Source: Gammaproteobacteria bacterium
Lineage (GTDB): Bacteria > Pseudomonadota > Gammaproteobacteria > Steroidobacterales > GCA-2729495
DNA length: 42,168 nt
Assembly: GCA_024276095.1 (NCBI GenBank)
Contig: JAJRXW010000243.1
Coordinates: 1 to 42,168, forward strand
Reading direction: 5' to 3'
How positions within the stretch are numbered: position 1 is the first letter of the stretch; the number at the start of each line of letters is the position of its first letter. The position numbers and the translations under genes are program-made. This document shows, piece after piece, positions 11,485 to 39,533 of this stretch. Below the pieces are notes generated by a model. It was not told the origin of the DNA and ran no database searches. It saw nothing but the letters and a program-made list of their open reading frames with translations.

Positions 11485-14342
11485 CGCTTGTACTTCTTGC
11501 CGGAACCACAGGGGCAGGGCTCGTTCCGGCCAACCTTGCGCGTTTCGCGCACGAAAGGCGCTGCCGGCTCCGGCTCCTGCTGCTGCACCGCTCCCGGCCC
11601 AGCCACCGCCGACTGTGCATCCGCATGACGGTATTGCATCTTGTCGACCGACTGCCGTTGCTCGTCGACCGCTTCGACATCTTCGGGTGACTTCACCTGG
11701 GCCTTGCACAGAATACTGATGACATTGTGCTTGTATTCATTGAGCATTGTGCCGAACATCTCGAAAGCTTCGCGCTTGTATTCCTGCTTGGGGTTTTTCT
11801 GGGCGTAGCTGCGCAAACCGATTCCCTGGCGGAGATAATCCATCGCCCCCAGATGCTCTTTCCAGTGCATATCGAGCTGCTGCAGCATCACGGCCTTCTC
11901 GAACTGCCTGAGAATATCCGGGCCGATGAGCTCTGCCTTTTGCTCATACAGGGCGCGAACTTCGGCGATGACCCGATTGCGAAGATCCTCGATACTTTGC
12001 TCCGGATCTTCTTTCAGCCATGCACCAACGCGCAGCCTGGCGCCAAACTCCCCTTCCAGGGCATTTTCCAGTGACGGAATATCCCACTGGTCTTCCAGGC
12101 TCCTGGGAGGAATATAGGTATCAAAGGTTTCGCCCAGCACCTCGGCGGCGATTCCTTCGATCACATCCTCGATATCATCCGTTTTCATCAGCATGTTGCG
12201 CTGGGCATAGACAACATGACGCTGGTCATTCGCCACATCGTCGTACTCAAGCAGTGCTTTTCGTGAATCGAAATTGTGCGCTTCGACCTTGCGCTGAGCG
12301 CGTTCGATCTGCCGGGTCAGCAGCTTGCTTTCGATGGCCTCGCCTTCCTGCATGCCCACCCGGGACAGCATGGCCTTGGTGCGCTCCGGGTTGCCGAAAA
12401 TACGCATCAGGTTATCTTCCATGGACAGGAAAAACCGGCTTGAACCCGGGTCTCCCTGCCGCCCTGACCGCCCTCTGAGCTGATTGTCAATGCGTCGGGA
12501 CTCGTGCCGCTCGGTACCGATGATATGCAGACCACCGGCTTTCAGGACCTGTTCATGACGTTCCTGCCACTCGGCCATATAGCGTTCCCTGACCTCGTCA
12601 GTCACGTCCTCGCCCAACTGGGCAATTTCCGCCTCGACATTGCCGCCGAGCACGATATCGGTGCCGCGACCGGCCATATTGGTGGCGATGGTCACCGATC
12701 CGGGTCGTCCGGCATCGACAATGATCTGCGCTTCCCGCTCATGCTGCTTGGCGTTGAGCACCTGGTGCTTGAACCCCTCTTTTTTCAGCAGACCGGAAAG
12801 ATACTCGGAGGTCTCGATGGAGGTCGTACCGACCAGCACCGGTTGCTGGCGCTCCCGGCAGTCCTTGATGTTCTCGATGATGGCCGCAAACTTGTCCTTC
12901 GCGTTCAGATAGACCAGGTCCGGCTGATCGTCACGGATCATGGGTTTGTGCGTGGGGATGACCACGACCTCGAGACCGTAGATCTGCTGAAACTCGAATG
13001 CCTCGGTATCTGCCGTACCGGTCATGCCGGACAAAGTGCCGTACATCCGAAAATAGTTCTGAAAAGTAATGGAAGCGACCGTCTGGTTTTCTTCCTTGAT
13101 GGCCACTCCTTCTTTCGCCTCGACAGCCTGGTGCAGGCCGTCCGACCATCGCCGGCCGGGCATGGTCCGCCCGGTGAATTCATCGACGATCACGATCTCG
13201 CCGTTGTTCACGACGTATTCGACATCGCGCTTGAATACCACGTGCGCCCGAAGTGCTGCAGTGATGTGGTGCATCAGCCGGATATTGCCGGAATCGTACA
13301 GGCTCTCTCCCTGGTTGAGCAGGCCGGCTTCCAGCAGCAGCTTCTCGACATGATCGTGGCCGGCTTCAGTCAGATACGCCTGCCGGCTTTTTTCGTCGAC
13401 AGTGTAATCCCCCTGGTCCAGGATGCGGCATACGGGCACCTTGGCGCCCGGATCCGTCTCGACCAGGTCACCACCGGCCTCTTCCGCCATTGCCAGCGCA
13501 GCGCCGATGGGCATCGGCTCCTGTTCCTCGCCATCCGGGGTAATCACCACTACCTTGGTGGCCGTAATATCCTCGTTGCGCAGCCGGCCTTCTTCCGGTT
13601 GCCGCTTGAGTTTCGGGACGATTTTATTGATTCCCAGGTAGAGGTCGGTGCTGCCTTCCGCCGGCCCGGAAATAATCAGCGGCGTCCTGGCTTCATCGAT
13701 GAGGATCGAGTCGACTTCGTCGACGATTGCAAAATCCAGGCCACGCTGCATCTGATCTTCGGAGCGAAAAGCCAGGTTGTCGCGGAGATAGTCAAAACCG
13801 AATTCGTTGTTGGTGCCATAAGTGACACCGGACTGGTAGGCGGCACGTTTTTCATCGGGTGTCTGCCCGCTTCTGATCACGCCTACACTGACGCCGAGAA
13901 ACTCGAATACCGGGCCCATCCACTGGGCATCGCGCTCGGCAAGGTATTCGTTGACGGTCACGACATGAACGCTCCCGCCGGTCAGAGCATGCAAATATGC
14001 GGGCAGTGTCGCCACCAGTGTCTTGCCCTCACCGGTACGCATTTCGGCGATCTTCCCCTGGTGCAGCGCGATGCCGCCTGCCAGTTGTTCATCGAAGTGT
14101 CGCAGGCCCAGCGTCCGGCGGGAAGCTTCCCGCACTACGGCGAAAGCTTCCGGCAACAGATCGTCCAGTGTCTCGCCGTCTGCGTGACGCTTTTTGAATT
14201 CGTCGGTCTTTTCCCGCAGCTCCAGGTCAGACAGCTTCTCGAGTTCCGACTCCAGTTCATTGGCCCGTACAATCAGCTTCCTGTAGGTACGCAGCAGCCT
14301 CTCGTTGCGGCTACCGAATAGCCTTGTAAAGATCTTTTTCAA
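11463..14342 (-). CDS. secA: Preprotein translocase ATPase SecA, TTG start, with insertion
   Basis: SecA drives preproteins through SecYEG. No ATG occurs before residue 101. The TTG at 14342 has AGAGGA six bases upstream and gives the family N-terminus ([16 protein letters not shown]), 959 residues. Walker A MRTGEGKT is at 101-108 and DEVD at 208-211. [32 protein letters not shown] and the C-terminal zinc/SecB-binding [14 protein letters not shown] are all present. Compared with E. coli there is an extra segment of about 50 residues at roughly 249-300, between KIVPKLKRQ and YTVDEKSRQ, near the start of the preprotein cross-linking domain. A TTG at 14366 is an alternative but has no ribosome site. 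No secM-like arrest gene is upstream; an M23 peptidase gene takes that place. Confidence 0.97.
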
Positions 14343-16781: not shown

Positions 16782-16923
16782 GTCTTTCCTCGATCCTTAT
16801 ATTAAACTAACCCATTGAATATAAAACAATTTCAGCGGGATAGCGCACAATAACAGACGCGCCTTGCCGCGAAAGCTATCACAGACCACCAAATCAAGGG
16901 AAATCTCGCCCGCCCGGGTTTGC

Positions 16924-18087
16924 TCAATCCGCCTGCCGGCGCAAAAAGGCCGGTACATCCAGCAGATCGAACGATGGTTGCGCCGGCGGTGCCGCAGCCT
17001 GACCGGTGGCCTCGCGGCGCTGGGTCGTCGGCTGCTCGAAGTTCGCATAGTTCGGCTGGTCGGAACCACCTTTGGCGACTGCTTTGACCGGCGTCACAAC
17101 ACGCATCGGCGGCTGCTCCTGAACAGCGGCAGGTTGCCCCAGTCCGGTGGCCACAACGGTGACCCGAATCATATCGGTCATGTCATCATCGATCACCGTA
17201 CCCACAACGACGGTTGCATCCTCCGAGGCGAACTCCTTGACTATTTCGCCTACTTCCTGGAACTCGCCGATCGACAGATCTTTGCCGGCGGTAACGTTCA
17301 CCAGGATACCGCGCGCTCCGGACAGATCGACATCATCGAGCAACGGGCTGGAGATAGCCGATTCCGCAGCCTCCCGGGCACGATCTTCACCACTGGCACT
17401 GCCCGAACCCATCATGGCCATACCCATCTCCGCCATCACCGTGCGTACATCCGCAAAGTCGACATTGATCAGGCCCGGCCGGGTAATCAGTTCGGCGATC
17501 CCCTGAACGGCTCCCTGGAGCACATCGTTCGCAGCACTGAAAGCATCCAGCAACGTGGTCTCGGCCCCCAGCACGGTGTGCAACTTTTCGTTGGGAATGG
17601 TGATCAGCGAATCCACGTACTTGGCCAGATCGGATACGCCCTGATCGGCAATACTCATCCGCTTCGCACCTTCCATCGAGAAAGGCTTGGTCACGACCGC
17701 AACCGTCAGGATACCGAGCTCCCTGGCTACCTGCGCCACGACCGGACCGGCCCCCGTGCCGGTACCGCCGCCGAGACCGGCGGTAATGAACAGCATGTCG
17801 GTGCCTTCGATGACTTCCTGAATCCGGTCCCGGTCCTCCATCGCCGCTTGCCTGCCCGTTTCGGGATTGGCGCCGGCACCCAGGCCCTTGGTGATATTGC
17901 AACCGATCTGCAGGGCCGTGCGAACCTTGGCACTGCGCAGTGCCTGAGCGTCCGTATTGGCGCAGATAAAATCCACCCCTTCAATGCCGCTTTTCACCAT
18001 ATGGCGAACGGCATTACCGCCACCCCCGCCTACTCCAAGCACCTTGATTACAGCATTCTGGCTATATGCATCCATGAGTTCAAACAT
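16924..18087 (-). CDS. ftsZ: Cell division GTPase FtsZ
   Basis: FtsZ, the tubulin-like GTPase that forms the Z ring, has 387 residues. The nucleotide-binding start (VIKVLGVGGGGGNAV, 13-27), the G-box GLGGGTGTGAGP (about 105-115) and the T7 catalytic loop NVDFAD (208-213) are intact. A variable Gln/Pro-rich linker leads to the conserved C-terminal peptide FDLLDVPAFLRRQAD, the docking site for FtsA, ZipA and ZapD. A strong ribosome site (GGAGAG) precedes the ATG. It lies 54 bases after ftsA, and that gap holds a CAAC-rich repeat. zapD is in the same window. Confidence 0.98.
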   Translation of the reverse strand: MFELMDAYSQNAVIKVLGVGGGGGNAVRHMVKSGIEGVDFICANTDAQALRSAKVRTALQIGCNITKGLGAGANPETGRQAAMEDRDRIQEVIEGTDMLFITAGLGGGTGTGAGPVVAQVARELGILTVAVVTKPFSMEGAKRMSIADQGVSDLAKYVDSLITIPNEKLHTVLGAETTLLDAFSAANDVLQGAVQGIAELITRPGLINVDFADVRTVMAEMGMAMMGSGSASGEDRAREAAESAISSPLLDDVDLSGARGILVNVTAGKDLSIGEFQEVGEIVKEFASEDATVVVGTVIDDDMTDMIRVTVVATGLGQPAAVQEQPPMRVVTPVKAVAKGGSDQPNYANFEQPTTQRREATGQAAAPPAQPSFDLLDVPAFLRRQAD

Positions 18088-18106
18088 CGACTTCTCTCCT
18101 CGGCAT

Positions 18107-18137
18107 CAACAACAACTAAACAACAACTAACAACAAC
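18107..18137 (-). repeat. GTTGTTG triplet-like repeats in the ftsA-ftsZ spacer
   Basis: Three CAACAAC blocks (18107-18116, 18121-18127, 18131-18137) separated by TAA or TAAA fill most of the 54-base spacer. On the ftsZ strand they read GTTGTTG and lie 20-50 bases upstream of the start codon. They would make an unstructured U/G-rich leader. A translational role is conceivable but unproven. Confidence 0.6.
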
Positions 18138-18141
18138 AAAA

Positions 18142-19374
18142 TCAGAGATGTCCCTGAAACCAGGCTCTCATCCTGTTCAGTACATCCTTCAAACCACTGC
18201 CGACCCGCATATCCGCGCCCGGCTGCCCGGATCGGCGCCTTGCATACTGCAACAAGCCCACACCGGTCGCGTGGATCGGGTTTCTGACCACATCGCCCAG
18301 ACCCTGAACGGCCTGTGGCAAACCCAGCCGGACCGGCATATGGAACACTTCTTCCGCCAGCTCGACGGCACCTTCCATCTTGGAACTGCCGCCCGTCAGC
18401 ACGATGCCCGCGGCAATCTGATCCTCGAAACCGCTGCGCCGGAGTTCATCGCGAATCAGCGTAAACAGCTCCTCGTAACGGGGCTCGACGACCTCGGCCA
18501 GCGTTTGACGCGCCAGCCGCCTCGGTGGACGTTCGCCGACACTGGGCACTTCGATGGTTTCATCCGGATTGGCCAGTTGCGACAGCGCACAGGCGTACTT
18601 GATCTTGATTTCCTCGGCATACTGGGTGGGCGTTCGCAATGAAACCGCGATGTCGTTGGTCACCTGATCGCCGGCAATGGGGATCACCGCCGTATGCTTG
18701 ATGGCGCCGCCGTTGAATACGGCGATGTCGGTGGTACCGCCACCGATATCGACCAGGCAGATACCCAGCTCCATTTCATCTTCAGTCAGCACGGCATAGC
18801 TGGATGCAAGCTGCTCGAGCACGATGTCATCGACTTCAAGCCCACAGCGCTGTACGCACTTGACGATGTTCTGCGCCGCACTGGCTCCGCCGGTCACCAT
18901 GTGCACTCTTGCTTCCAGCCTGACACCGGACATGCCGATCGGCTCGCGTATCCCGCCCTGCCCGTCGATAATGAATTCCTGCGGCAGGACATGAAGAATG
19001 CGCTGGTCGGCAGGAATAGCGACTGCACGAGCGGCATCGATCACCCGGTCGACATCGCTGCGGGCAACCTCACCGTCACGAATGGCGACGATACCGTGCG
19101 AGTTCAGGCTGCGGACATGGCTGCCGGCGATGCCGGTAAACACGGTATGAATTTCACACCCGGCCATCAGTTCGGCCTCCTCGACGGCCCGCTGTATGGA
19201 ATGAACCGTGGATTCGATATTGACCACAACACCCTTTTTCAATCCTCTTGACGGGTGCATGCCAAAACCGATCACCTCGAGATCGTCATCCACGACCTCA
19301 CCGACAATGGCGACCACTTTGGAAGTGCCGATATCCAGCCCGATGATGATTCCCTTGTCCGGTTTCTTAGGCAT
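18142..19374 (-). CDS. ftsA: Cell division protein FtsA
   Basis: FtsA is the actin-like protein that tethers FtsZ to the membrane and recruits later division proteins. The protein has 410 residues from the ATG at 19374 (MPKKPDKGIIIGLDIGTSKVV). The actin-family phosphate-1 (GLDIGTSKV), phosphate-2 (LVDIGGGTTDIAVF) and adenosine (GIVLTGGSSKMEG) motifs are seen. The C-terminal amphipathic helix ends NRMRAWFQGHL, the membrane-targeting sequence. A longer in-frame reading upstream is ftsQ sequence in another frame and is not used. The start overlaps the ftsQ stop by 8 bases, and AGGCAGGG provides a ribosome site. Confidence 0.97.
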   Translation of the reverse strand: MPKKPDKGIIIGLDIGTSKVVAIVGEVVDDDLEVIGFGMHPSRGLKKGVVVNIESTVHSIQRAVEEAELMAGCEIHTVFTGIAGSHVRSLNSHGIVAIRDGEVARSDVDRVIDAARAVAIPADQRILHVLPQEFIIDGQGGIREPIGMSGVRLEARVHMVTGGASAAQNIVKCVQRCGLEVDDIVLEQLASSYAVLTEDEMELGICLVDIGGGTTDIAVFNGGAIKHTAVIPIAGDQVTNDIAVSLRTPTQYAEEIKIKYACALSQLANPDETIEVPSVGERPPRRLARQTLAEVVEPRYEELFTLIRDELRRSGFEDQIAAGIVLTGGSSKMEGAVELAEEVFHMPVRLGLPQAVQGLGDVVRNPIHATGVGLLQYARRRSGQPGADMRVGSGLKDVLNRMRAWFQGHL

Positions 19375-31101: not shown

Positions 31102-32831
31102 TGGCGTCTGGCCATCATCGTGGTTCGATCCTGCTTGACCGGGTCGACCAGCAGATCCGGCGTGACCGCCAGAATTCGCAGCGCCCCGGAAGCCACTTTC
31201 GAAAAAACCGGCGCGGCAACCGCACCACCGTAATACTCCCCGGCACTCGGCTCATCGATGACGACGACGATGGCCAGACGGGGATCGGAAACGGGAGCGA
31301 TCCCGGCAAAGACCGCGGTATGCCGGTCATCGACATATCCGCCTGCAGCTGACTTTCTCGCGGTGCCTGTTTTTCCCGCCACGCGATAACCGGCAACCGC
31401 CGCCTTGCGACCGCTGCCGGTCGGGCCGGTCACCGTTTCAAGCATTCCCAGCACCGCCTGAGCGGTCTCTTCCCTGACGACGCGGCGTGCGATGGGCGGA
31501 CTGTCGATGCGCAGCAGCGATACAGGACGGCGCAGTCCACCCGCACCGATCGCGGCATAGGCCTGAGCCAACTGCAGTGGCGTCAGCGACAGGCCGTAGC
31601 CATAAGCCAGTGTCGCCTGGCTGATCGGACGCCAGTTCTCATAATAGCTCAGCAACCCGGCCGACTCACCCGGGAATCCACTGGACGTCAGCCGACCGAT
31701 GCCGAAATTGGAAAGCACTTCCCAAAGCAGGGACGGCTTGAGTGTCATGGCCACCATGGTTGCGCCGACATTGCTGGAACGCACCAGAATCGTGGTCAGA
31801 TCGATACGACCGAGATTCTCGCTGTCCTCGATCACCTTCGAACCGACCGAGATACGGCCGGGAGACGTATTGACCCGGCTGTCCGGCTGGTACTGTCCGC
31901 TCTCCAGGGCTGCGGCAATGATCAGCGGCTTGAAGCTCGAGCCGGGCTCGAATATATCGGTGATCGAACGGTTGCGATAACGCGAAGCGATAAACTGCGA
32001 GCGGTCGTTGGGATTATAGGAAGGCTGATTGGCCATCGCCAGCACCTCGCCCGTGAGCACATCCAGCACCACAACGGACCCGGATACCGCTTTGTGCTGT
32101 TGCATGGCAGATTTGAGTTCCCGGTATGCGAGATACTGAATACGCAGATCGATGGAAGTGACCAGGTTCCTGCCGGGTTTTGGTGACTCGATGCTTTCCA
32201 CGTCTTCGACAACGTGCCCGTAACGATCCTTCAGCACCTTTTTCTTGCCGGGCGTACCGGCCATCCAGTGATCGAAAGCCAGCTCCAGCCCTTCCTGGCC
32301 GACATCGTCTATGTTGGTAAAACCGATCAAATGCCCCGCTACCTCGCCGACCGGGTAATAGCGGCGGTATTCACGCAGCAGGTACACACCGGGAAACTTT
32401 CTTTGCTCGACAGCGGCAGCGTCCGCAGGATTCATATGCCGCTTGAGGTACATGAACTCCTTGCCGGCATTCCGGGTCAGCCGGCGCGTCAGCGATTCGC
32501 GTTCCAGATCCAGAGAAACTGCCAGCGCGGGTATCTTGTCGGGGTATTTCAGCAGCTCGCGCGGATTCACCCAGACGGAATCGACGGGCGTGCTGACCGC
32601 CAGGGGCTCACCGTTCCTGTCGGTGACCGTGCCACGATGCGCCGAGATCCGGGCCATCCGCAGGTGCCTTGCAGCTGCCTGCTCGTTGAGAAAGCTCTTG
32701 TTGAAAACCTGCAGGTGAACAGCCCGTGCACTGAGCACCACGGCGAAAAGCAGCAGGCCCGCCGTCATGAAATGGCAGCGCTGAAGAAAGCTGCGCTGCT
32801 GACTGTTGAGCTGCCGGCGTTTTGGCTTCAT
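31098..32831 (-). CDS. ftsI: Septal transpeptidase FtsI (PBP3)
   Basis: FtsI cross-links septal peptidoglycan and is a beta-lactam target. Of 577 residues, a basic cytoplasmic tail and one membrane helix (about 20-38) come first. The pedestal domain follows, with RGTVTDRNGEPLAVS. The transpeptidase domain has S298-x-x-K301 (GSSFK), S352-S353-N354 and K487-T488-G489 (KTGTAR). All three active-site boxes are intact. It overlaps ftsL by 4 bases and murE by 4 bases. Confidence 0.98.
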   Translation of the reverse strand: MKPKRRQLNSQQRSFLQRCHFMTAGLLLFAVVLSARAVHLQVFNKSFLNEQAAARHLRMARISAHRGTVTDRNGEPLAVSTPVDSVWVNPRELLKYPDKIPALAVSLDLERESLTRRLTRNAGKEFMYLKRHMNPADAAAVEQRKFPGVYLLREYRRYYPVGEVAGHLIGFTNIDDVGQEGLELAFDHWMAGTPGKKKVLKDRYGHVVEDVESIESPKPGRNLVTSIDLRIQYLAYRELKSAMQQHKAVSGSVVVLDVLTGEVLAMANQPSYNPNDRSQFIASRYRNRSITDIFEPGSSFKPLIIAAALESGQYQPDSRVNTSPGRISVGSKVIEDSENLGRIDLTTILVRSSNVGATMVAMTLKPSLLWEVLSNFGIGRLTSSGFPGESAGLLSYYENWRPISQATLAYGYGLSLTPLQLAQAYAAIGAGGLRRPVSLLRIDSPPIARRVVREETAQAVLGMLETVTGPTGSGRKAAVAGYRVAGKTGTARKSAAGGYVDDRHTAVFAGIAPVSDPRLAIVVVIDEPSAGEYYGGAVAAPVFSKVASGALRILAVTPDLLVDPVKQDRTTMMARRQ

Positions 32832-33106
32832 GGCTGCATCAGCTGTATTTCATCGGGACGTGGCGTACGCATGTGCATCTCCTGCCGAGCCATCTTCTCG
32901 ACGCGCGCATGCCGGGACCACATACTCTGTTCGATCTGCAGCCGGCCCCATTCAACTTCCAGCTGGTCCCGCTCGGCAATCATGGCCTGGAGTTCGGTAA
33001 ACAGCTTGCGTGATTCATGCTTGGCATAGACGCAGCCGATAGCCGATGCCATTACCAGTATCGTCAACACGCCAACCAGCACCAGTCGTGGCCAGACCCC
33101 GGTCAT
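32828..33106 (-). CDS. ftsL: Cell division protein FtsL
   Basis: FtsL is a small bitopic protein that forms a coiled coil with FtsB and activates FtsWI. The 92-residue protein from the ATG at 33106 has a membrane helix at about residues 6-26 and a periplasmic heptad region (LFTELQAMIAERDQLEVEWGRL). RHARVEKMARQEMHMR is the conserved end segment. The 4-base ATGA overlap with the rsmH stop fixes the start; a longer reading upstream is rsmH coding sequence in another frame. Confidence 0.94.
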   Translation of the reverse strand: MTGVWPRLVLVGVLTILVMASAIGCVYAKHESRKLFTELQAMIAERDQLEVEWGRLQIEQSMWSRHARVEKMARQEMHMRTPRPDEIQLMQP

Positions 33107-34122
33107 GCCACACGCTCTGCGACTCTCAGCACGGCGCTGCGCGCCCTGGGGTTCCGGCACATCTCTTCGTCCCCGGGCCGTATCGCCCGCGACGGAAGCT
33201 TCAGGTGAGGAAGAGCTGAATCCGGCACGACGGGTAAGTCCGCCAGTGCCGGATCAACCCGCGCACCTTCACGAAAAAATCGCTTTACAATCCTGTCTTC
33301 CAGGGAATGAAAGCTGATCACACATAACCGGCCGCCGGTCGCCAGGCCTTCCAGTGCGGCCGACAGCCCCTGGGAAATCTCATCGAGTTCCCGGTTGATA
33401 AATATCCTGATCGCCTGGAACGATCGCGTTGCCGGGTGCCGGCTCTTGCTCTTGCTCTTGCTCTTGCTCTTGCTCTTGCTCTTGCCCTTGCCCTTGCCCT
33501 TGCCCTTGCCATGCCCCGAACCGCGGCGCGGCAGTACTCTCTCGATCAGCGCAGCCAGTTGCCCGGTGGTCGTAATCGGGTTTTGCTCACGCTCGACACA
33601 CACCGCTTTGGCAATCCGGCGAGATGAACGCTCTTCTCCGTAGCGGTACAACACCCGTGCAATTTCCCGTTCCGATACCGAGTTGATCCATACCTGCGCC
33701 GAAATACCACTGGCAGGATCCATGCGCATATCCAGCGGACCATCTTTCATAAAACTGAAACCACGCCTTGCATCGTCAAGCTGCGGCGAAGACACGCCCA
33801 GGTCGAACAAAATTCCGTTGACCCGGCCGACCAGCTGCCTGCTTTTCAGAAATGCGCCCAATTGCCCGAAACTCTCGTGCTCGATACAAAACCGAGGATC
33901 TTTTTGACTCAATTCTTCCCCAACCCGAACTGCTTCCGGATCGCGATCCAATCCGAATACCCGGCCTTCGGGTCCCAGTACGTCAAGAATCGCCTGACTG
34001 TGTCCTCCACGACCGAATGTGCAATCGACGTACACACCATCCGGTCTGATTGCCAGTTGATGCAAAACCTCATCCAGCAGCACGGGTTCATGTGGAATCA
34101 CTCTGGTGATCCGACCTGCCAA
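33103..34122 (-). CDS. rsmH: 16S rRNA (cytosine(1402)-N(4))-methyltransferase RsmH, with GK/SK repeat insert
   Basis: RsmH (MraW) methylates N4 of C1402 in the ribosomal P site, using SAM. RsmI, encoded 1.1 kb away, adds the 2'-O-methyl at the same base. The SAM motif VDCTFGRGGHS (32-42), LFDLGVSSPQLD, DMRMDP and ISFHSLEDRIVK are present. Residues 205-226 are a low-complexity run of five Gly-Lys then six Ser-Lys dipeptides inserted between the VLPRR and RHPATRSFQAIRI elements. These are normally joined by a short basic loop. The run lies in the inserted helical substrate domain and may touch rRNA. Total length is 339 against about 313 in E. coli. Confidence 0.96.
   Translation of the reverse strand: MAGRITRVIPHEPVLLDEVLHQLAIRPDGVYVDCTFGRGGHSQAILDVLGPEGRVFGLDRDPEAVRVGEELSQKDPRFCIEHESFGQLGAFLKSRQLVGRVNGILFDLGVSSPQLDDARRGFSFMKDGPLDMRMDPASGISAQVWINSVSEREIARVLYRYGEERSSRRIAKAVCVEREQNPITTTGQLAALIERVLPRRGSGHGKGKGKGKGKSKSKSKSKSKSKSRHPATRSFQAIRIFINRELDEISQGLSAALEGLATGGRLCVISFHSLEDRIVKRFFREGARVDPALADLPVVPDSALPHLKLPSRAIRPGDEEMCRNPRARSAVLRVAERVA
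33445..33510 (-). repeat. In-frame hexanucleotide repeat within rsmH
   Basis: Six units of CTTGCT (33445-33480) are followed by five units of CTTGCC (33481-33510) without interruption, 66 bases in all. On the coding strand they encode (GK)5(SK)6. The unit length is a multiple of three, so slippage would change loop length without breaking the frame. Confidence 0.95.
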
Positions 34123-34131
34123 ACGAGATTC

Positions 34132-34587
34132 TTACAGCGACAGGGACTCAAGTTCGGGTGGCAATTCAAGTCCTTCGTCACCACCTTCTGCCAACCAGGC
34201 ATCCCTTTTCGAGTTCCAGCCCGCCTCATCCCATAGTTCAAATTTGTTGCCCTGACCAATCAGAATTGATTGACGATCGAGTCCTGCGTATTCCCGGAGC
34301 TCCCTCGGGATCAAAACCCGGCCATGTCCATCCAGCTCGAGATCCGACGCGTAACCGACCATCAAGCGCTGCAGTTTGCGGGCCGCCCTGTTCAGGCTCG
34401 GCAGCCGCATCAACTGTCGTTCGATGTCTTCCCAGTCAGGGAGGGGATAAAGAAGCAGGCATTTGTCCTGGTCGATGGTGCACACGAGATGCCCTTCGCA
34501 ACGGGCAACGATTCGTTCCCGGTAGCGGGCAGGGATAGCCAGCCGCCCCTTGGCATCAAGGGTAATTTTTGTCGCCCCACGAAACAC
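34132..34587 (-). CDS. mraZ: Transcriptional regulator MraZ, GTG start
   Basis: MraZ is a DNA-binding protein with two AbrB-like (SpoVT) half-domains, here about residues 5-50 and 78-125. Each carries the signature LDAKGRLAIPARYRE or LDGHGRVLIPRELRE. It forms a ring that binds spaced TGGGN boxes at its own promoter and represses the dcw cluster. The 151-residue length is standard. The start codon is GTG (34585-34587) with no obvious ribosome site, hinting at low translation. The four boxes it should bind lie 19-53 bases upstream. rsmH follows after 9 bases. Confidence 0.97.
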   Translation of the reverse strand: MFRGATKITLDAKGRLAIPARYRERIVARCEGHLVCTIDQDKCLLLYPLPDWEDIERQLMRLPSLNRAARKLQRLMVGYASDLELDGHGRVLIPRELREYAGLDRQSILIGQGNKFELWDEAGWNSKRDAWLAEGGDEGLELPPELESLSL

Positions 34588-35217: not shown

Positions 35218-35223
35218 ATACTA
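35218..35223 (-). promoter_or_regulatory. Candidate -10 element of rnpB
   Basis: TAGTAT on the minus strand lies 10 bases upstream of the first paired base of the RNase P RNA, and its TAG is the rsmI stop codon. No good -35 hexamer is visible at the right distance, so processing from a longer rsmI transcript remains possible. Confidence 0.35.
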
Positions 35224-36069
35224 GGTGTCACGACGCAAGCCAACAGCGATACGGTAGGCCTGCTTTCTCGGTGCGCCGGGAATCCTGGCCGCCAGCGTTG
35301 CCGCCTGGCCGGCCGGCAGCTGGCTGCTCAGGATGGACACCACCCGCTCCAGGTTCTGCTGATCGACGCTGGTGTCCGGCTCGCAGCCACCGATGACCAG
35401 CGTATATTCGCCCTTGCTGCTGCCCGGATCGGCCGCCAGCTGTTCCCGCACTGCACCGATGCTGCCCCGGTAGAATGTCTCATGCAGCTTGGTCATTTCC
35501 CTGCCCAGCGTCACCGGCCGGTCTGCACCGAATACACAGGACAGATCTGCCAGGGTGTCGTGGATCCGGTGGACCGACTCGTAAAACACCAGTGTTTCGG
35601 TGCACTGCCGCAGACCCTCGAGTGCCGTCTTGCGCGCCCCGGACCTGGCGGGCAGAAAGCCTTCAAAGCGAAACCGGTCGGTGGGCAGCCCGGCCACCGA
35701 CAACGCGGCGATCAGGGCACAGCTGCCCGGTATCGGAGTAACCGGGAAAGCACGCTCCCGCGCCGCGGCCAGCAAACGAAAACCCGGATCGCTGATCAGT
35801 GGCGTACCCGCATCGCTGACCAGCGCCACGCTCTTGCCGGCTTCGATCCGGTCGATGACGGTCTGCACCCGTTCCGGCTCATTGTGCTCATGCAGCGACA
35901 TCAGCCGGTTGCTGATCCCGAAATGCGTTAGCAATTGCCGGACCCGGCGGGTATCCTCGGCCGCCACGAGATCCACCGTTGCCAGCACGGATCGTGCCCG
36001 GGGACTGATATCATCGAGATTCCCGATGGGCGTAGCGACGATATAAAGCGTACCTGGTTCAGTCGGCAT
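35221..36069 (-). CDS. rsmI: 16S rRNA (cytidine(1402)-2'-O)-methyltransferase RsmI
   Basis: RsmI uses SAM to methylate the ribose of C1402, partnering RsmH. The 282-residue protein begins with GTLYIVATPIGNLDDISPRA, the family signature. AAEDTRRVRQLL, ALVSDAGTPLISDPGF, PIPGSCALIAALSVAGL and GREMTKLHETFYRG follow in the expected order. The start at 36069 (MPTEPGTLYIV) matches family starts; an in-frame ATG at 36099 would add ten residues and has no ribosome site. It is divergent from lpoA with a short AT-rich spacer and is followed by rnpB after 13 bases. Confidence 0.96.
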   Translation of the reverse strand: MPTEPGTLYIVATPIGNLDDISPRARSVLATVDLVAAEDTRRVRQLLTHFGISNRLMSLHEHNEPERVQTVIDRIEAGKSVALVSDAGTPLISDPGFRLLAAARERAFPVTPIPGSCALIAALSVAGLPTDRFRFEGFLPARSGARKTALEGLRQCTETLVFYESVHRIHDTLADLSCVFGADRPVTLGREMTKLHETFYRGSIGAVREQLAADPGSSKGEYTLVIGGCEPDTSVDQQNLERVVSILSSQLPAGQAATLAARIPGAPRKQAYRIAVGLRRDT

Positions 36070-36142
36070 CCGTTGATCAACCTTATACTTGCTATACATT
36101 CATATGAAATCAAATCCGGCCGAAGCAGCAAACACCACCTTC

Positions 36143-39065: not shown

Positions 39066-39533
39066 CTACTTGACGACTCTGAGGTGCGATTTTCCGGGGT
39101 GCGATTTTCCGGAATGCGATCTCCCGGAATGTAGCCCGCCGGATGGTGCATTTCCGGCCGATGCCGGCGCATCGTCAGGAGCGGTTTCGGGTGTGGCGGG
39201 GGCTGCTGTATCGCCGGAAACCCCCTCTTCGGAAAAAATCATTCCCTGCCCCGAGCCTTTGGCAAATATCCCCAGTATGGCATCGACCGGAACCCGGACA
39301 TGGCGTCTGACACCGGAGAACCGGCCGTCAAAGCTGATCAACTCATTACCAAGATCGAGGTTACTGGTTGCTGAATAGCTGATATTCAGAATGATCTTGT
39401 CATCCTTCGCATATTCCATCGGCACATTGACACCGGATGCGCTCACATCGACGACAACGTGAGGCGTCTCACCATTGTCGATCATCCACTCGTGCATCGC
39501 ACGAAGCAAATAGGGGCGTTGTGAGGTCGCCAT
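39066..39533 (-). CDS. sspB: ClpXP protease adaptor SspB, repeat-bearing tail
   Basis: SspB delivers ssrA-tagged proteins and other substrates to ClpXP. The 155-residue protein has the substrate-binding core (RPYLLRAMHEWMIDNGETPHVVVDV, then NISYSATSNLDL, FSGVRRHVRVPVDAILGIFAKGSGQGM) at about 6-98. A flexible Ala/Pro/Asp-rich linker follows. The last residues are LRVVK, the ClpX-docking motif, as in E. coli. Between linker and motif lies a degenerate pentapeptide repeat (HSGRS, HSGKS, HPGKS). The gene is 7 bases downstream of sspA, the usual pairing, and converges on diaA. Confidence 0.96.
   Translation of the reverse strand: MATSQRPYLLRAMHEWMIDNGETPHVVVDVSASGVNVPMEYAKDDKIILNISYSATSNLDLGNELISFDGRFSGVRRHVRVPVDAILGIFAKGSGQGMIFSEEGVSGDTAAPATPETAPDDAPASAGNAPSGGLHSGRSHSGKSHPGKSHLRVVK
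39085..39144 (-). repeat. 15-base tandem repeat in the sspB 3' end
   Basis: Four units begin at 39085, 39100, 39115 and 39130. The first two differ at two bases only, the third at three or four, and the fourth is strongly decayed. They encode the pentapeptide His-Ser/Pro-Gly-Lys/Arg-Ser just before the LRVVK end of SspB. The unit length keeps the frame. Confidence 0.85.

Follow-up and report, generated by a model that had tools for sequence, protein, structure and literature searches.

What is a run of eleven six-base units doing in the middle of an rRNA methyltransferase gene, and how did it come to be there? The question is raised by rsmH in a gammaproteobacterial draft genome (2.87 Mb in 322 contigs), from which we analysed one entire contig of 42,168 bases, called the window below. 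The locus holds an unusual variant of an ordinary, widespread enzyme, and is not a new kind of system.

A hexamer array in the middle of rsmH

On the plus strand of the window, six copies of CTTGCT (33445–33480) are followed by five copies of CTTGCC (33481–33510). Read on the minus strand, which is the coding strand, the array at 33445–33510 is (GGCAAG)5(AGCAAG)6, eleven in-frame hexamers in mid-gene that encode residues 198–219 of the 332-residue RsmH as (GK)5(SK)6. The coding sequence around it runs CAT (GGC AAG)5 (AGC AAG)6 AGC CGG CAC CCG, or H-(GK)5-(SK)6-S-R-H-P, with a trailing half unit AGC (Ser220, 33442–33444, minus strand) before CGG (Arg221) and CAC (His222). The sequence of both strands, TRF and the translation all bear out the original prediction of an in-frame (GK)5(SK)6 stretch built from eleven hexamers. 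TRF places the repeat at 33442–33509 (period 6, 11.3 copies, 98% match), and its score of 108 is the highest among the 8 TRF rows of the window.

Two exact period-6 spans, of 44 bp and 30 bp, make up the array, against a longest chance span of 12–20 bp per run when sequences of 42,168 bases were simulated 60 times with a third-order Markov model; the length of the array is far beyond chance. A pattern of four units with at most two mismatches gives 9 overlapping matches in the 2.87-Mb assembly, all of them within the array, and the array motif is unique to the rsmH locus in this genome. Elsewhere in the genome, 148,195 readable bases drawn from 15 further contigs (20 sampled stretches, from which five consisting wholly of N were excluded) contained no exact period-6 span of at least 21 bp, and 726,292 bases from further loci contained none of at least 24 bp.

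The gene itself (rsmH, also mraW; 33103–34101, minus strand, with a GTG start placed by homology) encodes a 16S rRNA (cytosine(1402)-N4)-methyltransferase, as originally predicted: its product scores 353.2 bits against TIGR00006, far above the equivalog cut-off of 154.3, and 350.2 bits against PF01795 (cut-off 27 bits). The best Foldseek match of the modelled protein is E. coli RsmH (3tka, E 3.5e-38). Its neighbourhood is the one expected for RsmH, with mraZ upstream (34132–34587, minus strand; TIGR00242, 148.2 bits, cut-off 98.35) and ftsL downstream (32828–33160, minus strand; TIGR02209, 78.9 bits, cut-off 42.45), the latter overlapping the 3' end of rsmH when read from its first GTG. Genes resembling ftsI, murE, murF, mraY and murD follow, as in the dcw cluster. 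The protein thus resembles the RsmH/MraW proteins of E. coli (3tka), Thermus thermophilus (1wg8) and Thermotoga maritima (1m6y, 1n2x) in family score, in fold (TM-scores by target of 0.89–0.96), in conserved motifs and in its dcw position beside mraZ and ftsL. All invariant columns of our alignment A1, described below, are present in it, which is true by definition since the window protein is a member of that alignment.

In aligned codons, rsmH differs from that of a congener with dN of 0.120–0.122 and dS of 0.90–1.08, and apart from the loop the gene is, judged from this comparison, under purifying selection. By these measures the window enzyme is otherwise an ordinary RsmH, and we take its N4-methylation of C1402 to be unchanged. 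The same strand also carries rsmI upstream of mraZ and rsmH (35221–36099; TIGR00096, 262.4 bits, cut-off 167.9). RsmI is a 2'-O-methyltransferase that acts on C1402, the nucleotide also targeted by RsmH, and the window's rsmI product aligns with that of the congener over 291 residues with no indel.

Loop length in relatives and growth of the array

The array lies in a loop of sequence LPRRGSGH-(GK)5-(SK)6-SR (residues 190–221; 33439–33534, minus strand), delimited with alignment A1 and an AlphaFold2 model. A1 joins the window protein to 55 of 108 other parsed homologues (56 sequences); most of those omitted were closely related to retained rows or were frames with long N-terminal run-ons, and one incomplete homologue (L018) was not parsed. 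Measured from residue 190 to the residue preceding His222, the loop spans 7–9 residues in 54 of the 56 sequences, 14 in the congener and 32 in the window protein, which in this respect, not a family-defining one, departs from its RsmH/MraW relatives; in E. coli RsmH, for instance, a short VKDKF-like loop stands ahead of KHPAT. The net charge of the loop is +14 in the window protein and between −1 and +6 in the other 55 sequences, where a single loop (L035) has −1 and the remainder are all at least +1. The original description of the protein as otherwise highly conserved therefore holds for the enzyme, whereas the loop is variable in sequence and nearly fixed in length.

The congener (G015, the only one among 40 genomes of the family; 81% identity) has the loop PRRSHGKGKGKTRHPAT, in which (GK)3 is written in mixed codons (GGC AAA GGA AAA GGA AAG ACC AGA). 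Other loops in the family read PRRGKGKHPAT, PRYGKGKHPAT, PRRGPRHPAT and similar, in a comparison of loop sequences and codons that leaves aside L004, L023 and L028. In the order sample, PF01795 matched in 140 of 147 genomes (136 full-length, 4 partial only), and among the 136 full-length matches the window protein exceeds the profile by 22 positions, the other 135 lying between −8 and +8. In the class sample, PF01795 matched in 353 of 369 genomes, and among the best ~150 matches listed, a biased set in that the window's own match ranks lower, no span exceeded 936 bp, as against 987 bp in the window. A 56-residue query comprising the loop and its flanks matched 265 of 398 genomes in the phylum sample, the other 133 having no match to this short query; among the matches listed, alignment from residue 1 is confined to the window, and all others start at residue 23 or later. 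Among the best 80 of 587 named-genome relatives (Methylophaga, Thiotrichaceae, Chromatiales and others, whose affiliation suggests a gammaproteobacterial source), none exceeded 53% identity, and a scan of viral contigs found no relative. A search for the insert in related RsmH proteins, as originally proposed, thus recovered a short GK seed in some of them and the long array in none of those examined; the seed is common to some relatives, and of the genomes examined this one alone has the array. The open-access literature that we searched yielded no description of a repeat or a lysine-rich loop in RsmH/MraW.

The codons indicate recent slippage, being uniform in the eleven units here and drifted in the congener's three units. 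The original prediction of slippage as the likely origin is thereby upheld, by the perfect uniform units here and the short, drifted (GK)3 of the congener. A short GK(-S/T-R) seed, as in relatives, would have been lengthened by replication slippage in this lineage. The array ends in AAG AGC CGG (K-S-R), where the congener reads AAG ACC AGA (K-T-R), so a Ser/Thr-Arg pair ahead of the conserved His was probably present before the array expanded, and tandem duplication of the hexamer AAGAGC at this boundary gives the SK block with no substitution. One duplication would produce K-S-K-S-R, and further rounds the entire SK block. The more specific suggestion that one point change had been spread by slippage is in this sense only half retained, as slippage stands and the point change is not needed, AAGAGC duplication being sufficient; from the two sequences compared, we infer that the boundary route is the simpler one.

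In a draft genome of 322 contigs, repeat numbers are easily miscounted, and the true number of units could be smaller, or the array could have been built from mixed reads. We consider such an assembly artefact the least probable of the explanations, barely to be credited, since no perfect span exceeds 44 bp, a length that ordinary reads could cover, the array is asymmetric owing to its two blocks, its frame is maintained across 66 bp, and a shorter form of the motif stands at the matching place in the congener.

The uniform codons also suit a recent microsatellite that grew neutrally in a length-tolerant, disordered loop, with no change in methylation or fitness. This is a possible reading that we rate tentatively, below the one preferred in the next section: the loop is predicted to be flexible, its sequence differs among relatives, and such an array has been kept by no relative examined. 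Its difficulties are that the near-constant loop length (7–9 residues in 54 of 56 sequences) makes a constraint on length probable for most lineages, and that a loop which contacts RNA by homology has gained 11 lysines, which should change RNA binding at least in vitro. Should the expansion nonetheless be neutral, the locus would show cleanly that an enzyme can accommodate a large polycationic insert where it meets its substrate.

Elsewhere along the congener's syntenic contig, 26 window frames could be aligned (at least 80 aa, shadow frames included), and an indel of at least 10 aa occurs only in rsmH; two others of the 26 have a 7-aa indel each. From this sample of 26 frames against the congener, we claim no trend of genome-wide repeat growth.

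The expanded loop and its probable RNA contact

The AlphaFold2 model built from the 56 sequences has a mean pLDDT of 92.1, with low values only around the loop and at N-terminus-like edges. Mean pLDDT falls to 64, 55 and 59 in residue blocks 191–200, 201–210 and 211–220, respectively, and the flanking helices (residues 179–189 and 225–235) are intact in the model, in which the loop is probably disordered. Among solved structures, the model comes closest to RsmH of E. coli, Thermus and Thermotoga and to METTL15, the mitochondrial RsmH homologue of human and mouse (7pnx, 7pnv, 8ipi–8ipm), which shares the fold. In an alignment to human METTL15 (7pnx), the loop corresponds to F262–H279; counted by hand in this alignment, L190–P191 of the window protein match F262–P263, and H222 matches H279. 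A mitochondrion-specific insertion in METTL15 was also considered as a homologue of the expansion and was rejected, as that insertion comprises residues 335–373.

The METTL15 loop at the matching place is somewhat longer than usual and contacts the backbone of h44 RNA; it is not repetitive. The report on the crystal structure of METTL15 with h44 RNA (PMC10828496) describes a positively charged channel made up of the beginning of helix 7 and the loop joining helices 8 and 9, with F262, P263, A266, T269 and R270 contacting the RNA backbone or ribose. According to the same report, two triple mutants, one of which (F262A/P263A/K270A) lies wholly within the loop, had no detectable RNA binding, and binding is to the backbone, is not sequence-specific and is considered electrostatic by the authors, who credit recruitment to the subunit to RBFA rather than to RNA affinity (PMC10828496). 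A simulation study indicates that K271–H279 of METTL15 bends slightly when SAM is brought near its target, with the average deviation of L274 rising from ~2.1 to 2.7 Å, and that large deformations are unneeded (PMC11785013). Because the window's loop aligns with this RNA-contact loop, the expansion lies, by homology, within the loop that holds the RNA, and the positively charged loop originally proposed to lie near the RNA-binding region finds its counterpart in the h44-contacting loop of METTL15.

With moderate confidence, we favour a working RsmH in which slippage has lengthened the RNA-contact loop, the extension being tolerated and possibly adding weak, non-specific affinity for rRNA. The firm part of this explanation, which we hold to be highly probable, is the slippage origin together with the placement of the loop. 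The loop would be positioned above the RNA channel as in METTL15, where its 11 lysines may act as a flexible polycation that binds h44 or nearby rRNA weakly and without sequence specificity, and N4-methylation of C1402 is assumed to stay the same. Whether the extra lysines affect affinity is the uncertain part. Several points speak against such an effect: the cited RNA contacts come from human mitochondrial METTL15, a distant homologue and not a bacterial RsmH, and METTL15 itself is argued to be recruited by RBFA; the flanking basic P-R-R, already present, could be enough by itself; and relatives, judged by their sequences, manage without the extension. The L035 loop, with its charge of −1, indicates that positive charge in the loop is no strict requirement. 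About four times longer and with 11 added lysines, in a gene the rest of which is under purifying selection, the RsmH loop would offer a natural experiment on the importance of RNA affinity in this loop.

Possible variation in unit number, the coding-strand motif and other repeats

In mutL of Salmonella and E. coli, an in-frame hexamer repeat of three units is known to vary in copy number, with an accompanying phenotype. This repeat resembles the present array in its six-base in-frame units and its housekeeping enzyme, and differs in having three units where rsmH has eleven. It is a precedent for a tuning, contingency-like locus, at which the number of units would vary among cells, in frame, grading loop charge and RsmH activity. 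A perfect 44-bp span beside one of 30 bp is of the kind expected to slip, and the array shares with contingency loci a homogeneous tandem run of short units. It does not share their switching by frameshift or promoter spacing, as each step adds or removes two residues in frame, which would shift dose instead of switching the enzyme off. In the congener, the codons of the three GK pairs have diverged and the stretch seems stable, and rsmH belongs to the dcw cluster and has a housekeeping role, unlike the surface genes typical of contingency loci; we regard tuning as improbable. A rheostat in which the number of GK/SK units, changing in frame, grades loop charge and so the grip of RsmH on the decoding-site helix, such that cells within a population would differ in C1402 methylation and with it in decoding accuracy, is more improbable still.

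Another explanation holds that the nucleic acid matters and not the protein, with a quadruplex, formed by the coding strand or by the mRNA, driving expansion or slowing rsmH translation. The GK block contains a predicted G-quadruplex consensus, GGGCAAGGGCAAGGGCAAGGG (33485–33505, minus strand, which is the coding strand), found by pattern match and by ViennaRNA with quadruplexes allowed. It holds exactly the four tracts needed, fitting the minimal four-tract consensus of G3 tracts with loops of 1–7 bases, and when quadruplexes are allowed the predicted energy falls from −5.6 to −16.4 kcal/mol for the 42-nt core and from −32.1 to −40.7 kcal/mol for a 115-nt segment. Consensus motifs are, however, not rare in this genome (2 matches in the window and 6 in 148,195 sampled bases); the SK block, which interrupts the G tracts, is longer and more expanded and yet has no GGG tracts; and the frame and basic character are already those of the seed. 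We think this explanation very unlikely. The only other consensus match in the window is at 12445–12473 on the minus strand. Short G-rich tandem units able to form four G tracts are also described in a report on the GGGNATC repeats of Xanthomonas and Nostoc, which differ in being seven-base, genome-wide and mainly intergenic, while here a single six-base array is coding (PMC4692102).

Overall, we rank the tolerated and possibly affinity-raising extension first, followed by neutral growth, tuning, a nucleic-acid effect and, last, an assembly artefact.

Other repeats were observed in this genome. A CAA-rich imperfect array at 18107–18141 (TRF periods 3 and 11) lies within an open reading frame at 16864–18642 on the plus strand, which encodes 592 aa, has no NCBIfam match at E ≤1e-10 and may not be a gene. 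On another contig of the same genome (C240; L137, 1–443), a 48-bp tandem repeat of ~9.2 copies with 90% match begins at the contig's first base, and is therefore possibly incomplete. Finally, the gene for SspB, a ClpXP specificity-enhancing factor (39066–39533, minus strand; NF008769, 157.6 bits), contains three tandem 15-bp units (SGRSH SGKSH PGKSH) at 39085–39131, just N-terminal of the LRVVK end, where the congener's SspB has a single SGKSH unit before LRIVK. This is a second small in-frame basic repeat, located in what is probably a linker, 6 kb from rsmH.
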